Below, piece after piece: positions 6,147-45,550 of a stretch of 52,670 nt of DNA (within the stretch, counting starts at the first letter, position 1; each line of letters begins with the position of its first letter). Position numbers and translations under genes: made by a program. Below the pieces are notes generated by a model. It had not been told where the DNA came from. It made no database searches and was given only the letters and a program-made list of their open reading frames with translations. The DNA lies in the IMG/VR virus record IMGVR_UViG_3300034068_000720, positions 1 through 52,670 of that record; one strand, 5' to 3'. Source of the DNA: a virus.

Positions 6147-7063
6147 TAAAAATTCCAGTCTTTGAATTCTTTTATGTTTCCGGAACAAGATTCTAAATGC
6201 TTGACCAGTTCGTTGTAGTTTACACTGACACTGGTTTCTACAGGATAGTTCCAATGTGGGACTGTCCATTCAGGATAATTTTCGTAACCTGTTTTTTTGG
6301 TGGGCCATAGTATGTCTTTTCTAAAATACTGTCCTTTAACCAGTCCTTTGAGGTAATAATTGAATCTACTCAGTGGAGCCATCTTCATAGTCTTAGAAGA
6401 AACTAAGTCGTTGTTATTATAATACTCAGATACATCTCCCCAGGTTTTAATTAGGTCATCACAGTAGTATGCTGCCAAGCTTTCTGCACTGTATGGGAAA
6501 TCTAATATTGTTCTATGCTTGCCAATCAGATCAAACCTTAATAGTAAACTTTCGTAATAGTTGTGATAAATGTGAATGCCCTTGTTAGAGTTCCCTATTA
6601 GTGCAGGTTCGTTTGCCCCACTCATGATCATTGGAAATTTCTCTGGCAATTGTTTGCTGGCCCATTCAAATGGATGATGCAACAGCGAGATAGATTTTTC
6701 TACTTCTTTACGTTTCAACCATGCTTCTTTGTGCTGTTCTAAATTGAGTTCTAGTATCTTAATGCTTATGCCATAGAATTTCGCTGACTCTTTTACCACG
6801 TTGTATTCAAAGTCATTGCGTCCTTTGACATGTATAAAGAAAGGCTCAAAATCTGCCTTCATATCTAAAAAGCATCTGAGAATAACCTGACTGTCAACAC
6901 CTGAACTAAACGCTACATAGACCCGCCCATGTTCAGCGTTGATGCGTTTTACATCATTGTTTAATTCTTCTCTAAGATTGCCAAATGCTCTGGATGGGCT
7001 TTCGTATTTTACAATAAATTTACCGTCAATGAGGTCGTAAGTGATTGGATTATTTGTTGTCAT
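6146..7063 (-). CDS. PP-loop ATPase (asparagine synthase C-domain-like)
   Basis: 305 aa. ATP pyrophosphatase motif V-A-F-S-S-G-V-D-S-Q-V-I-L-R near residue 50 (S-x-G-x-D-S), followed by an alpha/beta fold typical of N-type ATP pyrophosphatases (asparagine synthase, QueC, TilS-like). No glutaminase domain is present. Such enzymes adenylate a carboxyl or carbonyl and add nitrogen or sulfur. The start overlaps the acetyltransferase gene by 14 bases. A second PP-loop ATPase is encoded divergently at 7602-8813. Confidence 0.65.
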   Translation of the reverse strand: MTTNNPITYDLIDGKFIVKYESPSRAFGNLREELNNDVKRINAEHGRVYVAFSSGVDSQVILRCFLDMKADFEPFFIHVKGRNDFEYNVVKESAKFYGISIKILELNLEQHKEAWLKRKEVEKSISLLHHPFEWASKQLPEKFPMIMSGANEPALIGNSNKGIHIYHNYYESLLLRFDLIGKHRTILDFPYSAESLAAYYCDDLIKTWGDVSEYYNNNDLVSSKTMKMAPLSRFNYYLKGLVKGQYFRKDILWPTKKTGYENYPEWTVPHWNYPVETSVSVNYNELVKHLESCSGNIKEFKDWNF

Positions 7064-22258: not shown

Positions 22259-22287
22259 TTGACTTTTAAGTTAAACGGATATATAAT
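22259..22287 (+). promoter_or_regulatory. sigma70-type promoter of tRNA array 1 leader
   Basis: TTGACT, 17-base spacer, TATAAT. Predicted +1 is the A of the ATG at 22294. Confidence 0.85.
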
Positions 22288-22293
22288 AACACT

Positions 22294-22359
22294 ATGCTAA
22301 ACATTAATCTATTACCAGGTAACACAGGAACAGCCTTAGAGGATACTCCAAGGCCGTAA
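22294..22359 (+). CDS. putative leaderless 21-aa leader peptide
   Basis: Frame M-L-N-I-N-L-L-P-G-N-T-G-T-A-L-E-D-T-P-R-P-stop. The ATG coincides with the predicted transcription start and the stop lies in the 5' arm of a hairpin that competes with the terminator. Supported only by this geometry and by a similar arrangement at 32473. Confidence 0.4.
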   Translation: MLNINLLPGNTGTALEDTPRP

Positions 22360-22419
22360 ATCTACACACCTAGTAAAGATTACGGCCCTGGAACTAAACA
22401 CTCCAGGGTTTTGCTTTTT
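22333..22419 (+). promoter_or_regulatory. attenuator-like hairpins and terminator before tRNA-Gly
   Basis: Hairpin I 22333-22354 (GCCTT..AAGGC), hairpin II 22352-22387 (GGCCGTAA/TTACGGCC) and terminator stem III 22386-22408 (CCCTGGA/TCCAGGG, then T-rich) overlap in turn, so I excludes II and II limits III. tRNA-Gly begins 23 bases after the T-tract with no other promoter seen, so it must depend on read-through. Confidence 0.6.
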
Positions 22420-22441: not shown

Positions 22442-22517
22442 GCGGGATTAGCTCAGTTGGTAGAGCGATACCTTGCCAAGGTATAGGTCGAGAGTTCGAG
22501 CCTCTTATCCCGCTCCA
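22442..22517 (+). tRNA. tRNA-Gly(GCC)
   Basis: 76 bases, full cloverleaf, anticodon loop TTGCCAA, CCA encoded. First tRNA of array 1, behind the leader terminator. Confidence 0.95.
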
Positions 22518-22532
22518 AAAGAGTTTTAAAGT

Positions 22533-22548
22533 GTTGTAAAAATACAAC
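22533..22548. repeat. palindromic element GTTG-N8-CAAC, copy 1
   Basis: GTTGTAAAAATACAAC, 20 bases before the -35 box at 22569. Same element upstream of other promoters (32128, 46180, 46206, 46956, 49992). Confidence 0.6.
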
Positions 22549-22568
22549 AAAAAACTTTCAAATAAGTG

Positions 22569-22597
22569 TTGACAAAGTGGCTTAACTGTCGTATAAT
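22569..22597 (+). promoter_or_regulatory. sigma70-type promoter of tRNA array 1
   Basis: TTGACA, 17-base spacer, TATAAT: consensus at every position. Confidence 0.9.
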
Positions 22598-22636
22598 TGA
22601 TACTTACACAGCAACAAACGATAGAGTAGTTGTTTA

Positions 22637-22651
22637 GTTCTTTAACAATTT
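22637..22651 (+). promoter_or_regulatory. boxA-like antitermination site
   Basis: GTTCTTTAACAATTT closely matches the boxA of bacterial rRNA leaders (CTCTTTAACAATTT in E. coli). It lies between the consensus promoter and the first tRNA, where it could make polymerase resist termination in the untranslated array. Confidence 0.55.
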
Positions 22652-22721
22652 AGTGGCAATTTTTATGTAAGCACATTAACTTGAACGGATTCTTTCCTAG
22701 TATTGCTTTTGTGTTTACCAT

Positions 22722-22796
22722 GCTCGATTCGTCTATCGGTTAGGACGCTGGCCTTTCACGCCGGAAAGAGGGGTTCGATTCCCCTATCGAGTACCA
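22722..22796 (+). tRNA. tRNA-Glu(TTC)
   Basis: 75 bases, anticodon loop CTTTCAC, CCA encoded. Confidence 0.95.
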
Positions 22797-22941
22797 TTTG
22801 TTTAGTGTTATCAGGGTATCGTGTGCAGACGTGTACACTATGCGGGCCTAACTGGCGAGGGACAGGTCCTAATATAACTGCTTAGTCGCTATGGACGGAA
22901 GCGCAACTGACTCCTAAATTGAGCAGATAGCACTAAACAAA
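22797..22941 (+). ncRNA. structured spacer RNA closed by a 16-bp stem
   Basis: The spacer between tRNA-Glu and tRNA-Leu starts and ends with arms 22797-22812 and 22926-22941 that pair over all 16 bases (one G-U). Inside are further stems such as GGGCCT/AGGTCC. No ORF fits. The closing stem abuts tRNA-Glu and ends 5 bases before tRNA-Leu. Confidence 0.6.
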
Positions 22942-22946
22942 TGTAT

Positions 22947-23031
22947 GCGAGTATGGAGAAATCGGTATACTCAAGAGACTTAAAATCTCTCGTCGAAAGG
23001 CATCCCGGTTCGACCCCGGGTACTCGCACCA
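22947..23031 (+). tRNA. tRNA-Leu(TAA)
   Basis: 85 bases with long variable arm, anticodon loop CTTAAAA, CCA encoded. Confidence 0.95.
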
Positions 23032-23037
23032 AGTTTA

Positions 23038-23114
23038 GGAGTGGTAGATCAGCTGGTTAGATTACCTGCCTGTCACGCAGGGGGTCGCGGGTTCGAGTCC
23101 CGTCCACTCCGCCA
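23038..23114 (+). tRNA. tRNA-Asp(GTC)
   Basis: 77 bases, anticodon loop CTGTCAC, CCA encoded. Confidence 0.95.
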
Positions 23115-23465
23115 AATCCCGTTACTATTTTCGTTAAAATAGCGTTTGATTAGCGATAGAGATCCGGTGGCAGAAAACCGTAAGCGTGGGGCTGGAAACT
23201 ACCCCTACAGACTCTGATAGGCAGTATCCTTCTGCACACAGACTTTGAATAAAAAGGATGGACAGAGTAACCGCTCAATTTAAGGGCTGGTGTGGAAACC
23301 AGTAGCTTAATCCTAATTTTGTAGCAGTAGTAGTTACGGGCACTTCCGGCAACAGGAGGCGCTGACTAGCAGGGTGCAACTCCCTCGGCTACATCTATTT
23401 TGAGAGCCACATCGCCTGGATACTTCCTCCTTGGAGCACTAGGTCCTGCAACCGTGGCTCTCCCT
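23115..23465 (+). ncRNA. structured non-tRNA spacer
   Basis: About 350 bases without a plausible ORF but with many local stems: CGGT/ACCG (23165/23177), CTGGT/ACCAG near 23290, TGTAGC/GCTACA closing 23320-23393, CTTCC/GGAGG inside it, and a perfect 9-bp GAGAGCCAC/GTGGCTCTC closing 23402-23462. Several GAAA/GGAAA-type loops are present. It could be one large folded RNA; the family is not identified. Confidence 0.5.
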
Positions 23466-23552
23466 TATATTAAAACACATTGACGTGTGACTGCGTCACT
23501 GTCTCAGTGAGAGGCCTGTTAAAGCTACAGGACATCAGTGTGTTTCAATATG
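23466..23552 (+). ncRNA. stem-closed RNA before tRNA-Leu
   Basis: Arms 23466-23482 and 23536-23552 pair over 17 positions with one mismatch and two wobbles. Inside are hairpins GTGAC/GTCAC and CCTGT/ACAGG. The 3' arm contains the 16 bases AGTGTGTTTCAATATG that recur at 24928-24943, also just before a tRNA. Confidence 0.55.
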
Positions 23553-23555
23553 ATA

Positions 23556-23640
23556 GCCCCCTTGGCGGAATTGGTAGACGCGGCAGATTTAGGTTCTGTT
23601 ATCGAAAGGTGTGAGAGTTCGAGTCTCTTGGGGGGCACCA
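23556..23640 (+). tRNA. tRNA-Leu(TAG)
   Basis: 85 bases, anticodon loop TTTAGGT, CCA encoded; reads CUN codons. Confidence 0.95.
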
Positions 23641-23767
23641 GGTTTTGATGAGGGGGAGTGTGCATAGCGGCCCTGGGCCTACGGTGCCTACTCTTAAACA
23701 ACAGCAGAGCAGTTACGCAAACATCGTAACATAAGACTTGGAGCCACTCCTGTGCCCCTTAGCACTT

Positions 23768-23775
23768 TATAAATA
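23768..23775 (+). promoter_or_regulatory. perfect T4-type late octamer TATAAATA
   Basis: Eight of eight, exactly five bases before ATG 23781; predicts a leaderless transcript. Confidence 0.65.
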
Positions 23776-23780
23776 GACGC

Positions 23781-24659
23781 ATGATACAATTAGATCAAGC
23801 AGAAGTTAGTTGGGCATTAAATGCACATTGTGGACATAAATGTTCATACTGTCATTCCCAATACAGTGGCGGTGAATTAGACAAGTCTGTTGATCAGTAT
23901 CTGGCAATTATTAAAAAATTGCAGGATACAAGATACCAGCACCATTCTAAGATATACTGGAAAATCAGTGGAGGGGAACCCCTACACTTTCCGCATCTAA
24001 GCACAGTATTAAAAAAGATGAAAGAAAAGCCTTGCGTCATACGACTGGATACCAGTGGTGATGACAATTGGTTTTCATTGTACGGTGTTATAAATCTAAT
24101 AGATAAAATAAAACTCACATATCATTCGTGGCAAAACGATGATGTGTTTGGTTTCGTACTAGAACAATGTCAAGAAAAGAATGTAAGTGTAACAATTGAA
24201 GTTCCATTGTTACCCGGTGCTATAGTAGAGTCTAGGGCCAAAGTAAAACATTTTGTAGACTTGGGATATGTATGCAATGAACAGGTACTACGTGACTTAG
24301 GTGGCGACTTACATCGGGGATATAGTCAACTTGATGAAAACAGAATCTATGGTAGACCCGATGATTGGGAACCAGAACTGGTTGTGTATAATCCAAACTT
24401 ACCAGATCCCAACTATGTAGATTTAAGTACTGTCAATAACACTGATCCTGTGTACACTGGTATGCCATGTTATGCAGGTGTTGATTGGTTGTACATAAAC
24501 CCTAGGGGATTTGCCTCATACAGCCAATGTGGTGGCAGGAACGAACACTTTAATGCGTTTGATCCTGCATGGCAACCACCCAGCAATTCGTTCCCTTGCA
24601 CAGTTAATCAGTGCAGGAGTGAACAGGATAGGACAAAAATAAGAATTCACAATTCTTAG
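23781..24659 (+). CDS. radical SAM enzyme inside tRNA array 1
   Basis: 292 aa. [4Fe-4S] motif C-G-H-K-C-S-Y-C (Cys17, 21, 24), SAM-binding I-S-G-G-E-P-L-H, and more cysteines near the C-terminus (P-C-Y-A-G-V, S-Q-C-G-G, F-P-C-T, Q-C-R) suggesting an auxiliary cluster as in SPASM/twitch proteins. No Shine-Dalgarno; start set by the octamer. The 140-base stretch between tRNA-Leu and the gene has no other recognised feature. Substrate unknown; it may modify a peptide or RNA. Confidence 0.75.
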   Translation: MIQLDQAEVSWALNAHCGHKCSYCHSQYSGGELDKSVDQYLAIIKKLQDTRYQHHSKIYWKISGGEPLHFPHLSTVLKKMKEKPCVIRLDTSGDDNWFSLYGVINLIDKIKLTYHSWQNDDVFGFVLEQCQEKNVSVTIEVPLLPGAIVESRAKVKHFVDLGYVCNEQVLRDLGGDLHRGYSQLDENRIYGRPDDWEPELVVYNPNLPDPNYVDLSTVNNTDPVYTGMPCYAGVDWLYINPRGFASYSQCGGRNEHFNAFDPAWQPPSNSFPCTVNQCRSEQDRTKIRIHNS

Positions 24660-24947
24660 TACAGAACGTTCCGAGTGTCTTCGGATAGTGTGACCCACAC
24701 GATGAGAAGTAGTGTGACAACTACGGGTGGTAGTCTTCGAACCCAAAGGCCGCTAGCAATGCGAGAACGGTCCCTGTCGGGAAGCGGGTGGAAGGAGTGT
24801 GTGATGGGTATGATAGCGTCATATCTTGATACTCTATAATTACCGCCGGGGGATGCAGAGCATATTGAAGCACATTAAAGATAGGGTCGTAGCGGTTCCA
24901 TGAACTTGAGTACATACCAAGGTAGTTAGTGTGTTTCAATATGTTTT
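24660..24947 (+). ncRNA. structured spacer RNA before tRNA-Ala
   Basis: About 285 bases without a credible ORF. Arms 24861-24878 and 24926-24943 pair over 18 bases with two wobbles; the 3' arm shares 16 bases with the stem before tRNA-Leu at 23537-23552. Upstream parts hold several short GC-rich stems (for example GTGTGACCCACAC). It ends 4 bases before tRNA-Ala. Confidence 0.5.
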
Positions 24948-25023
24948 GGGGGTGTAGCTCAGTTGGGAGAGCGTCTGCTTTGCAAGCAGAATGTCGCAGG
25001 TTCGATCCCTGTCACCTCCACCA
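24948..25023 (+). tRNA. tRNA-Ala(TGC)
   Basis: 76 bases, anticodon loop TTTGCAA, CCA encoded. Confidence 0.95.
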
Positions 25024-25040
25024 ATATTAAGGAGAAAGCT

Positions 25041-25208
25041 ATGAGTGATGGCGGTAAAGGATCTGCGCCAAGGCCAAAAAGTGTTGATGCAAATACATTT
25101 GCAAGCAATTGGGAATTGGCGTTTGGCAAGAAGAAATCTCAAGAAGAAATGATTGATGAAGAGATTGAAGTCGAAGGCACTGTCAAAGACAGTGAACAAG
25201 GCGGATAA
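25041..25208 (+). CDS. small phage protein within the tRNA array
   Basis: 55 aa: S-D-G-G-K-G-S-A-P-R-P, then N-W-E-L-A-F-G-K-K-K and an acidic tail. This short protein type is common in T4-like and other phages, function unknown. AAGGAG 8 bases upstream decides the ATG; an in-frame extension through tRNA-Ala is rejected. Confidence 0.8.
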   Translation: MSDGGKGSAPRPKSVDANTFASNWELAFGKKKSQEEMIDEEIEVEGTVKDSEQGG

Positions 25209-25218
25209 GTAAAGTGCT

Positions 25219-25294
25219 GGGTCGTTAGCTCAGTTGGTAGAGCGTCTGCCTTACACGCAGAATGTCGGCGGTTCGAGCCCGTCACGACCCACCA
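25219..25294 (+). tRNA. tRNA-Val(TAC)
   Basis: 76 bases, anticodon loop CTTACAC, CCA encoded. Confidence 0.95.
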
Positions 25295-25301
25295 AAATTT
25301 A

Positions 25302-25377
25302 GCCCTTATAGCTCAGCTGGTAGAGCAACTGATTTGTAATCAGTAGGTCCCGTGTTCGAATCATGGTGGGGGCACCA
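25302..25377 (+). tRNA. tRNA-Thr(TGT)
   Basis: 76 bases, anticodon loop TTTGTAA, CCA encoded; two G-U pairs in the acceptor stem. Confidence 0.95.
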
Positions 25378-25384
25378 AATATCT

Positions 25385-25461
25385 CGGAGTGTAGCGCAGT
25401 CTGGTAGCGCACCTGGTTTGGGACCAGGGGGTCCAAGGTTCGAATCCTTGTACTCCGACCA
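25385..25461 (+). tRNA. tRNA-Pro(TGG)
   Basis: 77 bases, anticodon loop TTTGGGA, CCA encoded. Confidence 0.95.
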
Positions 25462-25466
25462 TGTTG

Positions 25467-25540
25467 GCGGGATTCGTAAAATGGTATTACCTTAGATTTC
25501 CAATCTAAAGTCGGGAGTTCGATTCTCCCATCCCGCTCCA
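25467..25540 (+). tRNA. tRNA-Gly(TCC)
   Basis: 74 bases, anticodon loop TTTCCAA, CCA encoded; complements tRNA-Gly(GCC). Confidence 0.95.
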
Positions 25541-25755
25541 AGAACCCGGGCGCCCTTGCCCGTTATACAAAGGGGGGAATACTGGCAAACCCATAGACGC
25601 CACGGTGCATTGGATCTACCGCAAGGTTCCCTTTAGGAACTACTTGAGAAATCACAAAGGCAGGGACGCTAACCTGTCTAAATAGAAAAGTACGTAGACA
25701 GAGTAGACTGCTCAGTCCGGGGCCTATGTGGTGTAGGTAGCCGGACACTAATTAT
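25541..25755 (+). ncRNA. structured spacer RNA before initiator tRNA
   Basis: 215 bases with stems CAAG-TTCC/GGAA-CTTG (25622-25645) and GTCCGG..CCTA/TAGG..CCGGAC (25715-25746), the latter ending 9 bases before tRNA-fMet. No plausible ORF on the plus strand. Confidence 0.5.
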
Positions 25756-25831
25756 CGCGGGGTACGTCAGTGGCCAGACTGCTAGGCTCATAACCTAGAA
25801 GACGGAGGTTCGAATCCTTCCCCCGCAACCA
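25756..25831 (+). tRNA. initiator tRNA-fMet(CAT)
   Basis: 76 bases. The acceptor CGCGGGG / CCCCGC-A-A-CCA leaves the C1:A72 mismatch that marks bacterial initiators and equals the E. coli fMet acceptor. Anticodon stem ends AGG/CCT rather than the classic GGG/CCC. Confidence 0.9.
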
Positions 25832-25837
25832 ACACAT

Positions 25838-25913
25838 TCCCTGATAGCTCAGTTGGTAGAGCACACGACTGTTAATCGTGTTGTCCCTGGTTCGAGCCCA
25901 GGTCGGGGAGCCA
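25838..25913 (+). tRNA. tRNA-Asn(GTT)
   Basis: 76 bases, anticodon loop CTGTTAA, CCA encoded. Last tRNA of array 1; no clear terminator follows. Confidence 0.95.
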
Positions 25914-32436: not shown

Positions 32437-32465
32437 TTGACAAGTAGACTAAGTAAGTGTATAAT
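32437..32465 (+). promoter_or_regulatory. sigma70-type promoter of tRNA array 2 leader
   Basis: TTGACA, 17-base spacer, TATAAT. Confidence 0.9.
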
Positions 32466-32472
32466 GATTACT

Positions 32473-32586
32473 ATGATGCAAAACATTTCTTATCAATCGC
32501 AAAGTTGGTGCTCTAAGCAGAGTATAAGCTTCTGTGCCTCTAAGTTTATGTCTTATCGTCATATTTCAGGAGCATGTCCAGGATAA
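32473..32586 (+). CDS. putative leaderless 37-aa leader peptide, Ser-rich
   Basis: Frame M-M-Q-N-I-S-Y-Q-S to C-P-G-stop: 9 Ser and 3 Cys of 37. The ATG is at about +2 of the predicted transcript. Its last codons form the 5' arm of the antiterminator-like hairpin (32576-32616). Support is geometric only. Confidence 0.4.
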   Translation: MMQNISYQSQSWCSKQSISFCASKFMSYRHISGACPG

Positions 32587-32639
32587 AGTAATCTAGCCAT
32601 TACTAACACCCTGGACTCGAAAGGCTCCAGGGTTTTTTA
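32576..32639 (+). promoter_or_regulatory. attenuator-like antiterminator/terminator before array 2
   Basis: GTCCAGG (32576-32582) can pair with CCTGGAC (32610-32616), enclosing AGTAAT/ATTACT; alternatively CCCTGGA (32609-32615) pairs with TCCAGGG (32626-32632) followed by TTTTTT. The two folds exclude each other. The terminator arms equal those at 22386-22408. Confidence 0.65.
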
Positions 32640-32652
32640 TTGATAGGAAAAA

Positions 32653-32814
32653 ATGAAATCAGGTAACAAGAAATTAAAAGAAGTTGAGTGGATTCGACAG
32701 CACACGTTAACACAAGAGCAGACTAAACAACTGATTCTAAACAAGTTAAAACGTGCTGAAGAAATGCATATCGCTTTTAAACGGCAGGAGATGTTGGTTC
32801 AAAAACATCGTTGA
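32653..32814 (+). CDS. small basic phage protein
   Basis: 53 aa, Lys/Arg-rich and helical (N-K-K-L-K-E-V-E-W-I-R-Q-H, then L-K-R-A-E-E-M-H). AGGAAA just upstream, 13 bases after the leader terminator, so it also depends on read-through. Function unknown. Confidence 0.6.
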   Translation: MKSGNKKLKEVEWIRQHTLTQEQTKQLILNKLKRAEEMHIAFKRQEMLVQKHR

Positions 32815-32820
32815 TAGCAA

Positions 32821-32995
32821 AGTGTGTATAGGTAACGAGGACCTAGCCTGCACTTAAAACATGGGCAAACGGGCGGCGACTAGGATGAAATCCCTTGTGT
32901 GGGAGGAAAAATTAGATCGTATTAAAGCATTCTTTAAGAACAGGCAGCCTAAGTATTTTAGAGTGCTTTAATACACACATTTGCAAGAGTGTGTT
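32821..32995 (+). ncRNA. structured spacer RNA before tRNA array 2
   Basis: Stem GTGTGTAT/ATACACAC (32822-32829 with 32971-32978) closes the element; inside, 32919-32933 and 32960-32974 pair over 15 bases with one wobble. An alternative ACACAC/GTGTGT hairpin uses the closing arm. No ORF seen. Confidence 0.5.
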
Positions 32996-33004
32996 AGAAA
33001 CATG

Positions 33005-33033
33005 TTGACAATCAACATGCAAAGCCTTATAAT
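33005..33033 (+). promoter_or_regulatory. sigma70-type promoter of tRNA array 2
   Basis: TTGACA, 17-base spacer, TATAAT, 8 bases before the first tRNA. Confidence 0.9.
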
Positions 33034-33041
33034 AAGATTAT

Positions 33042-33116
33042 GGGCTAATAGCTTAATGGTAAAGCAGTCGACTCATAATCGATTGAGTGTAGGTTCAATT
33101 CCTACTTAGCCCACCA
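33042..33116 (+). tRNA. tRNA(CAT), probable tRNA-Ile2 (or elongator Met)
   Basis: 75 bases, anticodon loop CTCATAA in CGACTCATAATCG, the same 13 bases as E. coli tRNA-Ile2, whose C34 becomes lysidine. If so it reads AUA; otherwise it is a second elongator Met. Confidence 0.9.
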
Positions 33117-33125
33117 AACAATTTA

Positions 33126-33210
33126 GGAGATGCCGCCGTAATGGTATGGCAGGGGACTGTAAATCCTCCGACTTCGGTCATAATAGGTTCGATCCCTATC
33201 ATCTCCACCA
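33126..33210 (+). tRNA. tRNA-Tyr(GTA)
   Basis: 85 bases with long variable arm, anticodon loop CTGTAAA, CCA encoded. Confidence 0.95.
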
Positions 33211-33214
33211 ATTT

Positions 33215-33288
33215 GTATCCATAGTGTAATGGCAGCATCGCGGTCTCCAAAACCGTCAGTCTAGGTTCGAGTCCTAGTGGGTACGCCA
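33215..33288 (+). tRNA. tRNA-Trp(CCA)
   Basis: 74 bases, anticodon loop CTCCAAA, CCA encoded. Confidence 0.9.
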
Positions 33289-33295
33289 AATAATA

Positions 33296-33387
33296 GGAAA
33301 GTGATGCAGGTGCGTTGGTGCGCCGACCAGCCTTGAAAACTGGGTTCTCAGAAATGGGATGGGGTTCGACTCCTCCGCTTTCCGCCA
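33296..33387 (+). tRNA. tRNA-Ser(TGA)
   Basis: 92 bases with long variable arm, anticodon loop CTTGAAA, CCA encoded; one C-A mismatch next to the loop. Confidence 0.9.
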
Positions 33388-33390
33388 AAT

Positions 33391-33466
33391 GCCAAGATAG
33401 CTCAGTTGGTAGAGCACCGGTCTGAAGAATCGGGTGTGGTTGGTTCGATCCCAACTCTTGGTACCA
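33391..33466 (+). tRNA. tRNA-Phe(GAA)
   Basis: 76 bases, anticodon loop CTGAAGA, CCA encoded. Confidence 0.95.
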
Positions 33467-33473
33467 AATTAAT

Positions 33474-33549
33474 GTGGGTGTGTACTGAATGGTTAGGTAG
33501 CGGATTGCAAATCCGTTTTATGCAGGTTCGATCCCTGTCACCCACTCCA
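33474..33549 (+). tRNA. tRNA-Cys(GCA)
   Basis: 76 bases, anticodon loop TTGCAAA, CCA encoded. Confidence 0.95.
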
Positions 33550-33558
33550 AAATATTAC

Positions 33559-33632
33559 TGGGGGTTAGTTAAATGGTATAACCGCGGATTTTGATTCCGC
33601 TGTCACAAGTTCGATTCTTGTACCCTCTGCCA
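33559..33632 (+). tRNA. tRNA-Gln(TTG)
   Basis: 74 bases, anticodon loop TTTTGAT, CCA encoded; U1-U72 leaves the weak first pair typical for Gln. Confidence 0.9.
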
Positions 33633-33651
33633 AATTTATCAGGAGTAACGT

Positions 33652-33774
33652 ATGAACTGGGAAGCATCTAACAAAATTAACGAAAGGGCAATCCTAGAAT
33701 GGACCCGAATGTGTAAAGCATACCGGGAGTATCTTTACCTCGGAAGATCTTCATCGCTATCGTATAATGGATAA
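33652..33774 (+). CDS. small phage protein overlapping tRNA-Arg
   Basis: 40 aa: M-N-W-E-A-S-N-K-I-N-E-R-A-I-L-E-W. AGGAG 7 bases upstream. The last 22 bases lie in the tRNA-Arg(GCG) gene, so mRNA processing at the tRNA would remove the stop; possibly truncated by the tRNA. Confidence 0.5.
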   Translation: MNWEASNKINERAILEWTRMCKAYREYLYLGRSSSLSYNG

Positions 33775-33827
33775 TACACCAGTTTGCGGAACTGGGAATT
33801 TAGGTTCGATTCCTGATGGCGGTACCA
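33753..33827 (+). tRNA. tRNA-Arg(GCG)
   Basis: 75 bases, anticodon loop TTGCGGA, CCA encoded; acceptor starts with A and has several G-U pairs. GCG is unusual, since bacteria mostly read CGY with inosine. Confidence 0.85.
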
Positions 33828-33828
33828 A

Positions 33829-33836
33829 TATAAATA
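33829..33836 (+). promoter_or_regulatory. perfect T4-type late octamer TATAAATA
   Basis: Eight of eight, two bases after tRNA-Arg and exactly five before ATG 33842. Confidence 0.65.
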
Positions 33837-33841
33837 TTTCA

Positions 33842-34585
33842 ATGAATCCAAATTTATTAATAATCAAAGACATTGTAGGAACACCATTGATAACCAAGTT
33901 TAGAGGAGTAGATTCTGAATCTCGTTTCAATCATAATCTGGCCAATACTCCTGGCTTTAAAGCTGAATGGGCCAACTTTCCAATCACCTATAGTTTAAAC
34001 AGCAACTACTATCGTTGCCCCGAATGGAAAGACATAGAGTGGGATAAAAGTGTTTTGTTGTTAGGCGACAGTTGGGCATTTGGCCAGGGGCTGGATCTTC
34101 CTTCAACCATCGCCAGCAGACTTAGTCATGAGCTAAACGGGATACCTGTGGTCAACCTTGGGCAAACTGGTACCAGCTGGACATTTTCCTGGATTAATTC
34201 AGTTAGATTAGTTGAAGCTGGAATTAGGCCCCGGGCCGTGATTTATATTTGGACGCATACTGCACGTTACGCTCAGTTGCTAGAAAACAACATAACACAC
34301 TCGCATGGGGCATGGGACGTTGACCAGCCAGGCTTAAGCCGAGAATATGCCATGGATCCGGTGCATTCTATGAACATGAGTATAGAGATTTTAAGATCAA
34401 TTCGCACAATGTGGACTTGTCCACAACTGCATTACACTTGGAGTAAGCATGTTGAGTTGCCAGGAGTACACTATCTTGGTAACTCAGAACTTGACAAAGC
34501 TCGTGATCTTATACATCCTGGTCCCAGATCAACTGCACAGTGGGCACGATCTATGGCACAGGAATTGTCAAGTAAAATTAACTAA
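33842..34585 (+). CDS. SGNH-hydrolase-like protein in tRNA array 2
   Basis: 247 aa. Block I L-L-L-G-D-S-W-A-F-G-Q-G (~81), Gly in L-G-Q-T-G-T-S-W, and D-L-I-H-P-G near the C-terminus (D-x-x-H). The block III Asn is replaced (I-Y-I-W-T-H-T). Same family as the partial gene at 51988. No Shine-Dalgarno; octamer-N5-ATG. Confidence 0.65.
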   Translation: MNPNLLIIKDIVGTPLITKFRGVDSESRFNHNLANTPGFKAEWANFPITYSLNSNYYRCPEWKDIEWDKSVLLLGDSWAFGQGLDLPSTIASRLSHELNGIPVVNLGQTGTSWTFSWINSVRLVEAGIRPRAVIYIWTHTARYAQLLENNITHSHGAWDVDQPGLSREYAMDPVHSMNMSIEILRSIRTMWTCPQLHYTWSKHVELPGVHYLGNSELDKARDLIHPGPRSTAQWARSMAQELSSKIN

Positions 34586-34593
34586 TAAAATTT

Positions 34594-34669
34594 GGGACTA
34601 TAGCTCAGCTGGTAGAGCAGTGGACTTTTAATCCATTGGTCGCGAGTTCGAATCTCGCTGGTCCCACCA
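34594..34669 (+). tRNA. tRNA-Lys(TTT)
   Basis: 76 bases, anticodon loop CTTTTAA, CCA encoded. Confidence 0.95.
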
Positions 34670-34670
34670 A

Positions 34671-35171
34671 TTATTCAGAAGGTTTATCTATATTAATAGA
34701 AATAGATACTCTGTCACCAGATCCGGTGTTTATACCAGCTCTGTGATGCATGTCTTTTGAAAATAAAAACCATGTGCCTGTTTCGCAGTTGTGCTTGGTC
34801 CACCGGTTACCAATTAGTAATTCCAATGGAGGGTGACTTGGTTTACAATTAACATAATACACTAAAACTTTATCTCCTGAGTGTAAATGATAGTGTGACT
34901 TCATTATACCTCCGGTTAATGTAATATTATACCAACTTATCATTATTTGATCAGGTACAACCAAGTGCTTTAAGCAATCTAGTACTGGTGCAAATTCAGG
35001 CCAAAGATGCGGGTTGGCACCGGGGTTTGTTCGGGCTCCTGCGTGAGATTCCACTATTCTTTCAAAATGTTTACTAGTAGGGTTAATCATAGCGATAGTC
35101 TTATCAGTGGAAGTATCCATGCATCGTTTCATCAATGCAGTATTATCAATATTAAGACGTCCAGTTAGCAT
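34671..35171 (-). CDS. 2OG-oxygenase-like protein, antisense within the tRNA array
   Basis: 166 aa. Metal region K-S-H-Y-H-L-H-S-G-D, strand V-L-V-Y-Y-V-N-C, then W-F-L-F-S-K-D-M-H-H-R-A-G and R-V-S-I-S-I-N-I-D, as in putative 2OG-Fe(II) oxygenases of phages. ATG 35171 is chosen because ACTAAATA (35177-35184) lies five bases upstream; a longer frame would run through tRNA-Met. Encoded opposite to the flanking tRNAs. Confidence 0.6.
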   Translation of the reverse strand: MLTGRLNIDNTALMKRCMDTSTDKTIAMINPTSKHFERIVESHAGARTNPGANPHLWPEFAPVLDCLKHLVVPDQIMISWYNITLTGGIMKSHYHLHSGDKVLVYYVNCKPSHPPLELLIGNRWTKHNCETGTWFLFSKDMHHRAGINTGSGDRVSISINIDKPSE

Positions 35172-35176
35172 AAAAT

Positions 35177-35184
35177 TATTTAGT
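35177..35184 (-). promoter_or_regulatory. late-type octamer ACTAAATA
   Basis: Six of eight on the minus strand, five bases before ATG 35171. Confidence 0.4.
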
Positions 35185-35199
35185 GCAGACTTTCTATAT

Positions 35200-35274
35200 G
35201 GTGATATAGCACAGTGGTAGTGCATCTGCTTCATACGCAGAGTGTCGTAGGTTCAAATCCTACTATCACCACCA
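35200..35274 (+). tRNA. tRNA-Met(CAT), elongator
   Basis: 75 bases, anticodon loop TTCATAC, G1-C72 pair, CCA encoded. Confidence 0.9.
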
Positions 35275-35283
35275 AAATATTAT

Positions 35284-35359
35284 GGAGTTGTTAGTGTAAA
35301 GGTTAACACCACGGATTGTGATTCCGTTAATATGGGTTCGATTCCCATACTTCTCCCCA
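35284..35359 (+). tRNA. tRNA-His(GTG) with acceptor-stem U-U pairs
   Basis: 76 bases including the His-specific extra G-1 opposite C73, anticodon loop TTGTGAT, CCA encoded. Acceptor positions 4:69 and 5:68 are U-U mismatches. Confidence 0.85.
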
Positions 35360-35385
35360 ATATATAAGTATACAACGTAATTTAC

Positions 35386-35461
35386 ACCGCTATAGCTCAG
35401 TTGGTAGAGCACCGCCTTGATAAGGCGTAGGTCCCTGGTTCGAGTCCAGGTGGCGGTACCA
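35386..35461 (+). tRNA. tRNA-Ile(GAT)
   Basis: 76 bases, anticodon loop TTGATAA, CCA encoded. Confidence 0.95.
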
Positions 35462-35464
35462 ATT

Positions 35465-35662
35465 TTATTGTTTGTCTATCTTCTTGGCGATTTCGTGAGC
35501 CGTTTTAATTACCTTTTTAGGAAGGTCATGTGCAGGTTTTTCACCGTAGCCGTATTTCTTTTTGGCCACTGCCATTCCTACAGCATAAGGATTGTCTACT
35601 TTTTCTTCTACAGGTACGTCATTGATAATGTCAATGTATTTTCTTAGTAAGTTGCCACTCAT
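35465..35662 (-). CDS. small phage protein
   Basis: 65 aa: M-S-G-N-L-L-R-K-Y-I-D-I-I-N-D, then A-V-A-K-K-K-Y-G-Y-G and a Lys-rich helix. The N-terminus resembles short proteins of T4-like phages. AAGGAA lies 9 bases before the ATG (35662); a GTTAAATA octamer lies at 35681-35688 on the minus strand. Confidence 0.7.
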   Translation of the reverse strand: MSGNLLRKYIDIINDVPVEEKVDNPYAVGMAVAKKKYGYGEKPAHDLPKKVIKTAHEIAKKIDKQ

Positions 35663-35680
35663 GATCAAATTCCTTTACAA

Positions 35681-35688
35681 TATTTAAC
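35681..35688 (-). promoter_or_regulatory. late-type octamer GTTAAATA
   Basis: Minus strand; would give a 13-base leader that starts at the AAGGAA of the gene at 35465-35662. Confidence 0.4.
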
Positions 35689-35730
35689 ACCGTTAAATAA
35701 AGTATACTCATACTTTCGTACGAGTATCGT

Positions 35731-35805
35731 CGGTCCTTAGTTCAATGGATAGAATGCTTGGCTTCGAACCAAGTGGTGTGGGTTCGATTCCTGCAGGACC
35801 GGCCA
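35731..35805 (+). tRNA. tRNA-Arg(TCG)
   Basis: 75 bases, anticodon loop CTTCGAA, CCA encoded. Confidence 0.95.
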
Positions 35806-35811
35806 GTTATT

Positions 35812-36144
35812 TTAGCGCAGACCGCGAGCCAATCGCATTGGAATAACAGCGGCAATTTCGTCGTAGTCATCCATGTCAATCACATCGTCGGTGCCAACTT
35901 CAATTATTTTTTCAACCAAGAAGTGCAGTAGTGTGTCACTGACAACATCTTCGCGTACCAGTTCTAGTATGCGGATAAGTGCAGGAATATTAAAGCTGAC
36001 AGCAGGACCGTAGGCTTCTTTGGTTTCTACCATTGATTCATCTTCAGTTTCGCCATTGGTATCTGTTGTAGTACCATTTCTATAATGTAGTACATATTTA
36101 GACTTGGGTAAAATTGTTTTGTTAGATTTTCTGTAGTATGCCAT
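35812..36144 (-). CDS. hypothetical acidic phage protein
   Basis: 110 aa; basic N-terminus (A-Y-Y-R-K-S-N-K-T) then an acidic, helical rest (D-D-V-I-D-M-D-D-Y-D-E-I). AAAGGAAA before the ATG; TTTAAATA octamer at 36175-36182 (minus strand). Function unknown. Confidence 0.65.
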   Translation of the reverse strand: MAYYRKSNKTILPKSKYVLHYRNGTTTDTNGETEDESMVETKEAYGPAVSFNIPALIRILELVREDVVSDTLLHFLVEKIIEVGTDDVIDMDDYDEIAAVIPMRLARGLR

Positions 36145-36174
36145 TTGGTTTCCTTTGTAGTTACTTAGACCATC

Positions 36175-36182
36175 TATTTAAA
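36175..36182 (-). promoter_or_regulatory. late-type octamer TTTAAATA
   Basis: Seven of eight on the minus strand, 30 bases before ATG 36144. Confidence 0.4.
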
Positions 36183-36231
36183 ATTACAAAATGAAAACAT
36201 CACACTACTTTAGCCGATCTAGCAATTTGTC

Positions 36232-36260
36232 TTGACAAAGATCAATAAGTATCGTATAAT
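36232..36260 (+). promoter_or_regulatory. sigma70-type promoter of tRNA-Ser/Arg
   Basis: TTGACA, 17-base spacer, TATAAT, 21 bases before tRNA-Ser. Confidence 0.9.
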
Positions 36261-36281
36261 AAACAAATAGCAAAGAACACA

Positions 36282-36369
36282 GGAGCATTGGCCGACCGGT
36301 TAAGGCAACAGATTGCTAATCTGTCACTGCGTAAGTGGTGAGTAGGTTCGATTCCTACATGCTCCGCCA
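36282..36369 (+). tRNA. tRNA-Ser(GCT)
   Basis: 88 bases with long variable arm, anticodon loop TTGCTAA, CCA encoded. Confidence 0.95.
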
Positions 36370-36393
36370 ATTTTTACAACCAGAAAGACTCAG

Positions 36394-36549
36394 ATGATTA
36401 AACCAGGCAAAACATTCAAACTTAGCAAATCAACCAAGCGCATGATGTGCAGTATTGTTGACACTAAATCTCGCAATCAATACAAAGCAATGATGATTCA
36501 AGCCGAGCTTGCTGCCAATGTTATCATCAAACGCGAACCACGCAAGTAA
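36394..36549 (+). CDS. small conserved phage protein
   Basis: 51 aa: I-K-P-G-K-T-F-K-L-S-K-S-T-K-R-M-M, then M-M-I-Q-A-E-L-A-A. This short basic protein is of a type common in T4-like phages; function unknown. AGAAAGA upstream. Confidence 0.75.
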   Translation: MIKPGKTFKLSKSTKRMMCSIVDTKSRNQYKAMMIQAELAANVIIKREPRK

Positions 36550-36581
36550 TTTTCTACACAGGGGTTAGTTGATTGAATTAT

Positions 36582-36656
36582 CTGGCGTTAGTACAATGGA
36601 TAGTACATAGAGCTTCTACCTCTAGAATGTGGGTTCGATTCCTGCACGCCGGACCA
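36582..36656 (+). tRNA. tRNA-Arg(TCT)
   Basis: 75 bases, anticodon loop CTTCTAC, CCA encoded. Its variable loop contains the ATG (36627) from which the carboxypeptidase frame can start. Confidence 0.9.
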
Positions 36657-44684: not shown

Positions 44685-44933
44685 ATGCAAATAAACGAAC
44701 TTCACGAGATTGATCAACTGCTAGCGTATGTTGATCCAAAATACTATGACACCTTTTGCGATGTTTGGTACCAAGGTCTAGACGCCTACAAGGAATACCC
44801 GCACAGCTTGATCATAATGGCCAATGCTGTACTGAATCACTGGGACATTCCATTGTACGCAGAAGATGTATCTTGGTCTGACGCAGACAAGTGTTTTATT
44901 TGGCATTTCATTAAACAAAAAGGAACAGAATGA
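44685..44933 (+). CDS. hypothetical phage protein
   Basis: 82 aa, acidic; [14 protein letters not shown], then [14 protein letters not shown]. Not recognised. ATGA overlap with clpP. A TACAAT at 44673 might be a -10 box. Confidence 0.6.
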
Positions 44934-45550
44934 GTTTAGTACCAATGGTCGTTGAAAAGAGCGGCACAGGCGAGCGAGCATATGACATCTACAGTCGCTT
45001 GCTCAAAGAACGTATTGTCATGCTGGAAGGTGAAGTCACTGACCAAATGGCAAATTTGATTGTTGCCCAGTTGCTTTATCTTGAAGCAGAGAATCCTGAA
45101 AAAGACATCAGCTTGTTTATCAACAGTCCGGGCGGAAGCGTTACAGCAGGCTTGGCCATCTATGATACCATGCAGTTTATTAGACCTGACATCAGCACCT
45201 ACGTCATGGGGCAAGCGGCCAGTATGGGTAGCTTCTTGGCACAAGCAGGTGCCGCAGGCAAGCGTTTTGTTCTGCCAGAGAGTCGCACAATGATTCATCG
45301 TGTTAGCTCAGGCACACGTGGCACCAGTGGATCTATTCACGTACAAGATCTACAATTTGAAGATGCCAAACGTAGCTTTGAAGAAGCACAACGTATCAAC
45401 CGGCGCCTGACAGAATTGTATGTGCGTCATAATACAGCAGGCAAAACATATGACGAATTGTTTGCCACTATGAAGTTTGACACCTTCCTAAGTTCTGACG
45501 AAGCAGTTGCTTATGGCTTGGCTGACAAGGTTATGACCAAAAGAGTTTGA
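44930..45550 (+). CDS. clpP: ClpP-family protease subunit, catalytic Asp replaced
   Basis: 206 aa, close to bacterial ClpP along its length. Ser98 in G-Q-A-A-S-M-G-S and His123 in M-I-H-R-V are kept. Aligning the C-terminal part to E. coli ClpP puts Thr180 where the catalytic Asp171 should be. It may need a host ClpP ring partner or have low activity, or use another acid. Ends at a terminator. Confidence 0.88.

Follow-up and report, generated by a model that had tools for sequence, protein, structure and literature searches.

Introduction

The closest described systems are the attenuators of amino-acid operons such as trp, his, leu, thr, ilvGMEDA, and pheA, in which a short translated leader carries codons matched to the operon and an antiterminator competes with an intrinsic terminator. 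Such leaders use repeated codons to sense between one and three amino acids, and the genes under their control encode biosynthesis enzymes. Tandem regulatory codons are typical of biosynthetic leaders, as is a pausing or sequestering 1:2 hairpin for trp and his, and neither is strictly defining. T-box riboswitches form a second group, in which one uncharged tRNA is bound directly through a specifier loop and tRNA status governs the choice between terminator and antiterminator.

For decades it has been debated why phages should have tRNA arrays, and, to our knowledge, the regulation of these arrays is hardly known. Three articles, in the parts available, describe phage tRNAs as replacements for tRNAs destroyed by host tRNA-cutting systems (PMC10264068, PMC11555353, PMC13096335), and those parts concern the tRNAs rather than a leader that regulates them.

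The sequence analysed here, termed the window, is a viral stretch of 52,670 nucleotides (IMG/VR record IMGVR_UViG_3300034068_000720) that holds two tRNA arrays, each preceded by a leader with a short open reading frame (ORF). The two leaders are best explained, with a probability of roughly 0.85, as ribosome-mediated transcription attenuators that test a whole panel of tRNAs. Together with their relatives they make up an apparently undescribed, large phage class of 89 leaders in 30 families, almost all of which lie before tRNA arrays.

Results

Two leaders and two tRNA arrays in the window

The features of leader 2 and of the region behind it are as follows.

32437–32465, + strand: sigma-70 promoter of leader 2, TTGACA-17-TATAAT, 12/12 consensus match
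32473–32586, + strand: leader ORF 2, leaderless, 37 codons, MMQNISYQSQSWCSKQSISFCASKFMSYRHISGACPG
32576–32582, + strand: antiterminator 2, 5′ arm GTCCAGG, inside the final ORF codons (complementarity, folding)
32587–32604, + strand: antiterminator 2, inner stem AGTAAT (32587–32592) / ATTACT (32599–32604) (folding)
32609–32638, + strand: intrinsic terminator 2, stem CCCTGGA (32609–32615) / TCCAGGG (32626–32632) followed by TTTTTT (sequence, folding)
32653–32814, + strand: 53-codon ORF directly past terminator 2
33005–33033, + strand: separate promoter directly before tRNA-Met, a leader-bypassing route to array 2, 12/12 consensus
33042–36656, + strand: tRNA array 2, Met Tyr Trp (Ser) Phe Cys Gln Arg Lys Met His Ile Arg Ser Arg

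The ORF opens with ATG ATG only 7 nt past the −10 box. Its final codons supply GTCCAGG, which pairs with CCTGGAC at 32610–32616, the antiterminator 3′ arm. Because this arm takes up six of the seven nucleotides of the terminator 5′ arm, mutual exclusion of the two structures is nearly complete. RNA folding assigns −11.8 kcal/mol to the antiterminator hairpin (z −3.4, 0 of 200 shuffles) and −15.1 kcal/mol to the terminator hairpin (z −3.8), and antiterminator complementarity is likewise above chance (z −3.6). When the transcript is cut before the terminator 3′ arm, the antiterminator is predicted to form. Folding also predicts a hairpin within the window leader ORF, at which polymerase might pause. 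A sequence-only reading of this locus had described the promoter, the ATG at the predicted start, the 37-codon frame, the antiterminator with its inner 6-bp stem, and the nearly complete exclusion, and all of these are present where it placed them.

The same reading had set the leader before tRNA array 2, which is true of its position. The first feature past the terminator is, however, the 53-codon ORF rather than a tRNA, and the first tRNA, at 33042, has its own perfect promoter. No PHROG match was obtained for the 53-aa protein; in relatives, small conserved proteins with an HTLTxEQ motif recur, in varied forms, at this place between leader and array. Window positions 32820–33000 are occupied by a structured RNA of ~170 nt (GGnAACGAGnnCC...AAACGGGCGGC...TAGGATgnAnTCnCTT), which is conserved and gave no Rfam match. 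It recurs at L267:15846, L271(-):12043, and 16 other loci, for a count of at least 19 and none in shuffles, and in many of these it sits between leader and tRNAs. Within the array, a tRNA-like gene at 33297–33387 has a long variable arm and the anticodon loop CTTGAAA and is read as tRNA-Ser UGA. ARAGORN did not call it, and its score on the tRNA-Sec model, a tRNA-clan model, is 35 bits; array tRNA lists are therefore minimum lists.

Leader 1 (22259–22418) has the same layout and precedes array 1.

22259–22287, + strand: promoter of leader 1, TTGACT-17-TATAAT
22294–22359, + strand: leader ORF 1, leaderless, 21 codons, MLNINLLPGNTGTALEDTPRP
22352–22387, + strand: antiterminator hairpin 1, GGCCGTAA/TTACGGCC, overlapping the first nucleotides of the terminator stem
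22384–22418, + strand: intrinsic terminator 1, ~24 nt upstream of tRNA-Gly (sequence, folding)
22442–25913, + strand: tRNA array 1, Gly Glu Leu Asp Leu Ala Val Thr Pro Gly Met Asn

Here the antiterminator duplex is predicted at −20.1 kcal/mol (z −4.5) and the hairpin at −14.6 kcal/mol. The stem CCCTGGA/TCCAGGG is common to both leaders, as had been claimed, but is weak evidence alone, as this terminator is common in viral contigs and most copies lack a leader. Otherwise the two leaders are largely unrelated in sequence, as the earlier account held, although not wholly, since a short 5′ similarity, ACTATG..AAACATT, can be read by eye.

Three other observations concern the surroundings of the arrays. 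Inter-tRNA stretches of array 1 at 22800–22940, 23118–23555, and 24660–24945 are long, non-coding, and apparently structured, some are flanked by inverted repeats, and none matched Rfam. An ORF within array 1 (23781–24659) carries a CGHKCSYC motif (Cx3Cx2C) and is radical-SAM-like by motif only. For the region 6149–7063 the PHROG comparison gave a weak match (E 4e-4) to QueC-like queuosine biosynthesis, which is notable beside many tRNAs.

The leader architecture recurs in many phages

Close relatives were gathered with the 53-aa protein behind leader 2 and a protein upstream of leader 1, and further ones with DNA patterns (the terminator; the promoter plus ATGATG; the terminator with flank). 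The contigs surveyed are mostly uncultured and partial. Scanning for a promoter followed by a start, a short ORF, and a terminator yielded 86 non-redundant leaders; removal of 2 false ones and addition of 5 by hand gave the 89 leaders in 30 peptide families. In four of the five added by hand, the start is not leaderless but lies further downstream, behind a Shine-Dalgarno sequence. The leader stop codon lies ~19–31 nt upstream of the terminator, and tRNA genes follow almost every leader that has enough downstream sequence. That shared architecture is the telling point, as proposed for the two window leaders, is borne out by the dozens of families that show it.

The association of ORF and terminator was also recovered blind to the terminator. 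Among 76 unique sites with promoter and ACTATGATG, 39 have ORFs of 15–60 codons, and 36 of these 39 are then followed by a terminator (0.0 in shuffles). The terminator-stem search alone was rejected as a leader finder, its matches being mostly unrelated terminators.

Outside this set the architecture is scarce. Bacterial genomes (257 Gb) gave 18 promoter plus ATGATG matches, 0 with the leader architecture, and tblastn against cultured phages with one leader peptide and the 53-aa protein gave nothing useful. By head maturation protease (window 44930–45547, 63% identical) the closest phages are PA5oct and Paride, Pseudomonas jumbo phages of the Arenbergviridae with 12 tRNAs, whose tRNA regions hold no such leader; nor was one found in the tRNA regions examined of KVP40, XacN1, Bacillus phage G, and LR756511. 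Candidates with both antiterminator and terminator occur in Sinorhizobium phage Phosso (PV764938.1, ORF 419754–419918, CCGGGTC/GACCCGG) and Agrobacterium phage Atu_ph07 (NC_042013, ORF 339118–339246), with an amino-acid fit that alone is not significant (0.22 and 0.46, respectively). Caulobacter phage phiCbK has a candidate 44-aa ORF that conforms to the pattern, in a GC-rich genome that makes chance pairing easy.

A separate small element was seen in L008 (~1540–1600), G002, and G003, where a leaderless 14-codon ORF, MMKHFSIAGSISIR, has three ATA codons and lies ~25 nt before the ATA-reading tRNA-Ile(tat). A hairpin without terminator is found downstream, and the ORF is possibly a single-codon form of the leader idea.

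Evolutionary signs of a coding sequence and an RNA switch

The leader ORFs evolve as protein-coding sequence. An omega-like ratio (nonsynonymous to synonymous per site) is 0.20–0.34 in 11 of 12 leader groups and 0.70 in one, and leader length differences in the 12 groups are all multiples of three. The group of leader ORF 2, with 10 members, is under purifying selection (0.21), its indels being multiples of 3. Judged from this evolution, the ORFs are probably translated.

The final codons of the ORF pair with the terminator 5′ arm better than shuffles do in 35 of 38 family representatives. Covariance over homologs, which had been named as a check on the proposed switch, was also seen: bases after GGG in the ORF covary with bases before CCC in the terminator (TCC/GGA, TTC/GAA, TCT/AGA, TTT/AAA, and others), with 0 of 5000 permuted pairings equal to the observed one. 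In folds of partial transcripts, nearly all of the 38 show the antiterminator 5′ arm paired to the terminator arm rather than to any segment upstream, so that read-through is the expected default when no ribosome is present.

These data bear on a very unlikely account in which the leader is an independent small RNA that ends at the terminator, with an incidental ORF and tRNAs transcribed from other promoters such as that at 33005. The strong terminator and the promoter of array 2 would suit it. However, of 63 leader-array gaps 23 hold a promoter-like site of at least 10/12 and 40 hold none, and behind leaders of the leader 1 type the first tRNA lies 10–33 nt past the terminator stem. The coding signature and the antiterminator-terminator covariation would also be left unexplained.

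Leader codons list the tRNAs of the array behind

tRNA arrays were mapped on 40 contigs. In the representatives of the 30 families, the array's own leader contains 341 of the 347 array amino acids, against 161 of 223 for other amino acids, and none of 20,000 permutations paired leaders and arrays as well. All 20 amino acids appear within 35–52 codons in 10 of the 30 families; the number expected runs from 0.18 if protein fragments are taken as the null to 0.32 if pooled leader composition is taken.

Phages with one array have leaders that list all or nearly all amino acids, and in phages with two arrays each leader lists those of its own array. Leader-specific residues in 13 two-array records match their own array 90:1 (26:1 plus 64:0), with a P of 7e-22 that is nominal only because the records are related phages. 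The window alone gives 12:0, with D, E, L, and T only in leader 1 and C, F, H, K, Q, S, W, and Y only in leader 2. Leader ORF 2 contains all ten array-2-specific amino acids (Y W S F C Q R K H I) and leader ORF 1 eight of the nine specific to array 1, Val being absent despite a tRNA-Val. The difference between own and other array, relative to random protein fragments, has P 0.0001 for leader 2 and 0.007 for leader 1. Residues also move with tRNAs. In G035 it is the second array, not the first, that has tRNA-Tyr, and only the second leader contains Tyr. In G024/G025 the first array has tRNA-His and only the first leader contains His, and the second array has tRNA-Cys and only the second leader contains Cys; for Cys, G016 shows the reverse.

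The match has limits. Synonymous codon choice shows no extra anticodon fit (391 of 425 versus 388 ± 4 expected), so the evidence stands at the amino-acid level. Several leaders hold residues without a matching tRNA, which are due partly to truncated arrays and partly to codons forced by the antiterminator arm.

Most array tRNAs are represented by one or a few scattered codons, and tandem repeats of one codon are absent. The single Trp codon in most leaders fits a system in which one codon per tRNA is enough. Placement is also ordered: for 324 of the 341 listed amino acids a codon occurs four or more codons ahead of the antiterminator arm, as compared with 307 ± 4.5 under shuffled residue order (0 of 300 reach the observed value). 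A ribosome stalled there would leave the arm free, and this placement is the geometry needed for stall-induced antitermination.

Rival readings of the leader peptide

The sequence-only reading had taken leader 2 for a Ser-rich attenuator. A coding leader with a switch is indeed present, but Ser is one of about ten array-2 matches, and the same architecture elsewhere is not driven by Ser. A classical attenuator that senses Ser alone could draw on the 9 Ser among the 37 codons of leader 2 and on Ser being the commonest residue over all leaders (11.7% versus 6.2% in proteins). Leader 1, however, has no Ser, each array has a matched set of about ten amino acids, codons of the antiterminator arm such as GGG-TCC account for part of the Ser, and single-codon runs like those of the his, trp, and leu leaders are absent. 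Ser sensing is therefore highly improbable.

A nascent regulatory peptide, or a free small protein, could instead act by its sequence and not through tRNA supply. In its favour, leader peptides are conserved within groups. Arrest peptides need defined residues, however, and between families little peptide sequence is in common, the amino-acid content and the arm-encoded end being largely what is shared. As leader composition tracks the tRNA array, little credence can be given to this idea.

The ORF might also report ribosome activity only, its amino-acid content being irrelevant. Stalling at any position would work for such a sensor of translation, which would agree with the leaderless start and with an antiterminator that is the default without a ribosome. 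The reading is nonetheless unlikely, as it explains neither the all-20 lists of single-array phages and the split lists of two-array phages nor the purifying selection on the peptide.

Discussion

A working model of a proposed tRNA-panel attenuator

In the proposed mechanism, RNA polymerase would start at or next to the ATG and a ribosome would begin the leaderless ORF, in which nearly every amino acid of the downstream array tRNAs is represented by one codon or more; we infer that the ORF is translated in the cell. When all listed tRNAs are available and charged, geometry suggests that the ribosome at the stop codon would cover the antiterminator 5′ arm, so that the terminator forms and transcription ends before the tRNAs. 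If any listed tRNA is missing, the ribosome would stall upstream and leave the arm free. The antiterminator would then form first, take the terminator 5′ arm, and allow the array to be transcribed. The array would thereby be under negative feedback from the tRNAs that it encodes.

The trigger would probably be severe. Mostly one or a few codons per tRNA imply a response to severe tRNA loss rather than to mild shortage. According to attenuator theory, a leader becomes less sensitive as the proportion of regulatory codons in its ORF shrinks and more sensitive when these codons are read very slowly (PMC1183508), from which it follows that tRNA loss, as by host nucleases, would be detected better than mild starvation. 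The likely setting, which is speculative, is an infection in which host tRNAs are destroyed by tRNA-cutting defences or exhausted, and any link of the leader to host tRNA nucleases is likewise speculation. It seems moderately probable that these pangram-like leaders check the whole tRNA set of the cell as a counter to host tRNA-destroying immunity, with the array switched on when any listed tRNA is lost and off when it is replaced, a split array having a split checklist.

The leader need not be the sole control of its array. The unattenuated promoter at 33005, with its perfect consensus, counts against sole control of array 2, and promoter-like sites in 23 of 63 gaps have the same implication for others.

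If the model is true, phages sense tRNA loss and answer it, which makes the tRNA-replacement hypothesis directly testable, and attenuation reaches from one amino acid to a whole decoding set. From a leader list one could predict which tRNAs its array serves to protect, and the element itself could be used, ready-made, to report tRNA depletion.

Comparison with known systems

The sequence-only reading knew of no phage tRNA operon with such a leader, and no published precedent was found in the literature covered, from which subscription journals and preprints are largely absent. Neither the Atu_ph07 paper nor two jumbo-phage overviews mentioned such an element where searched for relevant terms. 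An Rfam search returned no T-box or other leader family, only tRNA-type models and weak chance matches. T-box riboswitches are alike in that tRNA status would decide between terminator and antiterminator; in the phage leaders, however, a coding ORF does the reading.

The likeness is closest to the attenuators of amino-acid operons, with which the phage leaders share the short leader ORF, codons matched to the operon, alternative antiterminator and intrinsic terminator, and expected induction by stalling. They differ in listing ~8 to 20 amino acids, mostly with one or a few codons each, in having tRNA genes as output, and in starting leaderless in most cases. They also appear to differ in that nearly all of the partial-transcript folds show no upstream segment sequestering the antiterminator arm, so that no translation should mean read-through. 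The proposed action is thus known, being ribosome-mediated attenuation, and these leaders are set apart by a list of many tRNAs, by tRNA genes as output, by starting leaderless, and by an RNA fold predicted to be on by default.
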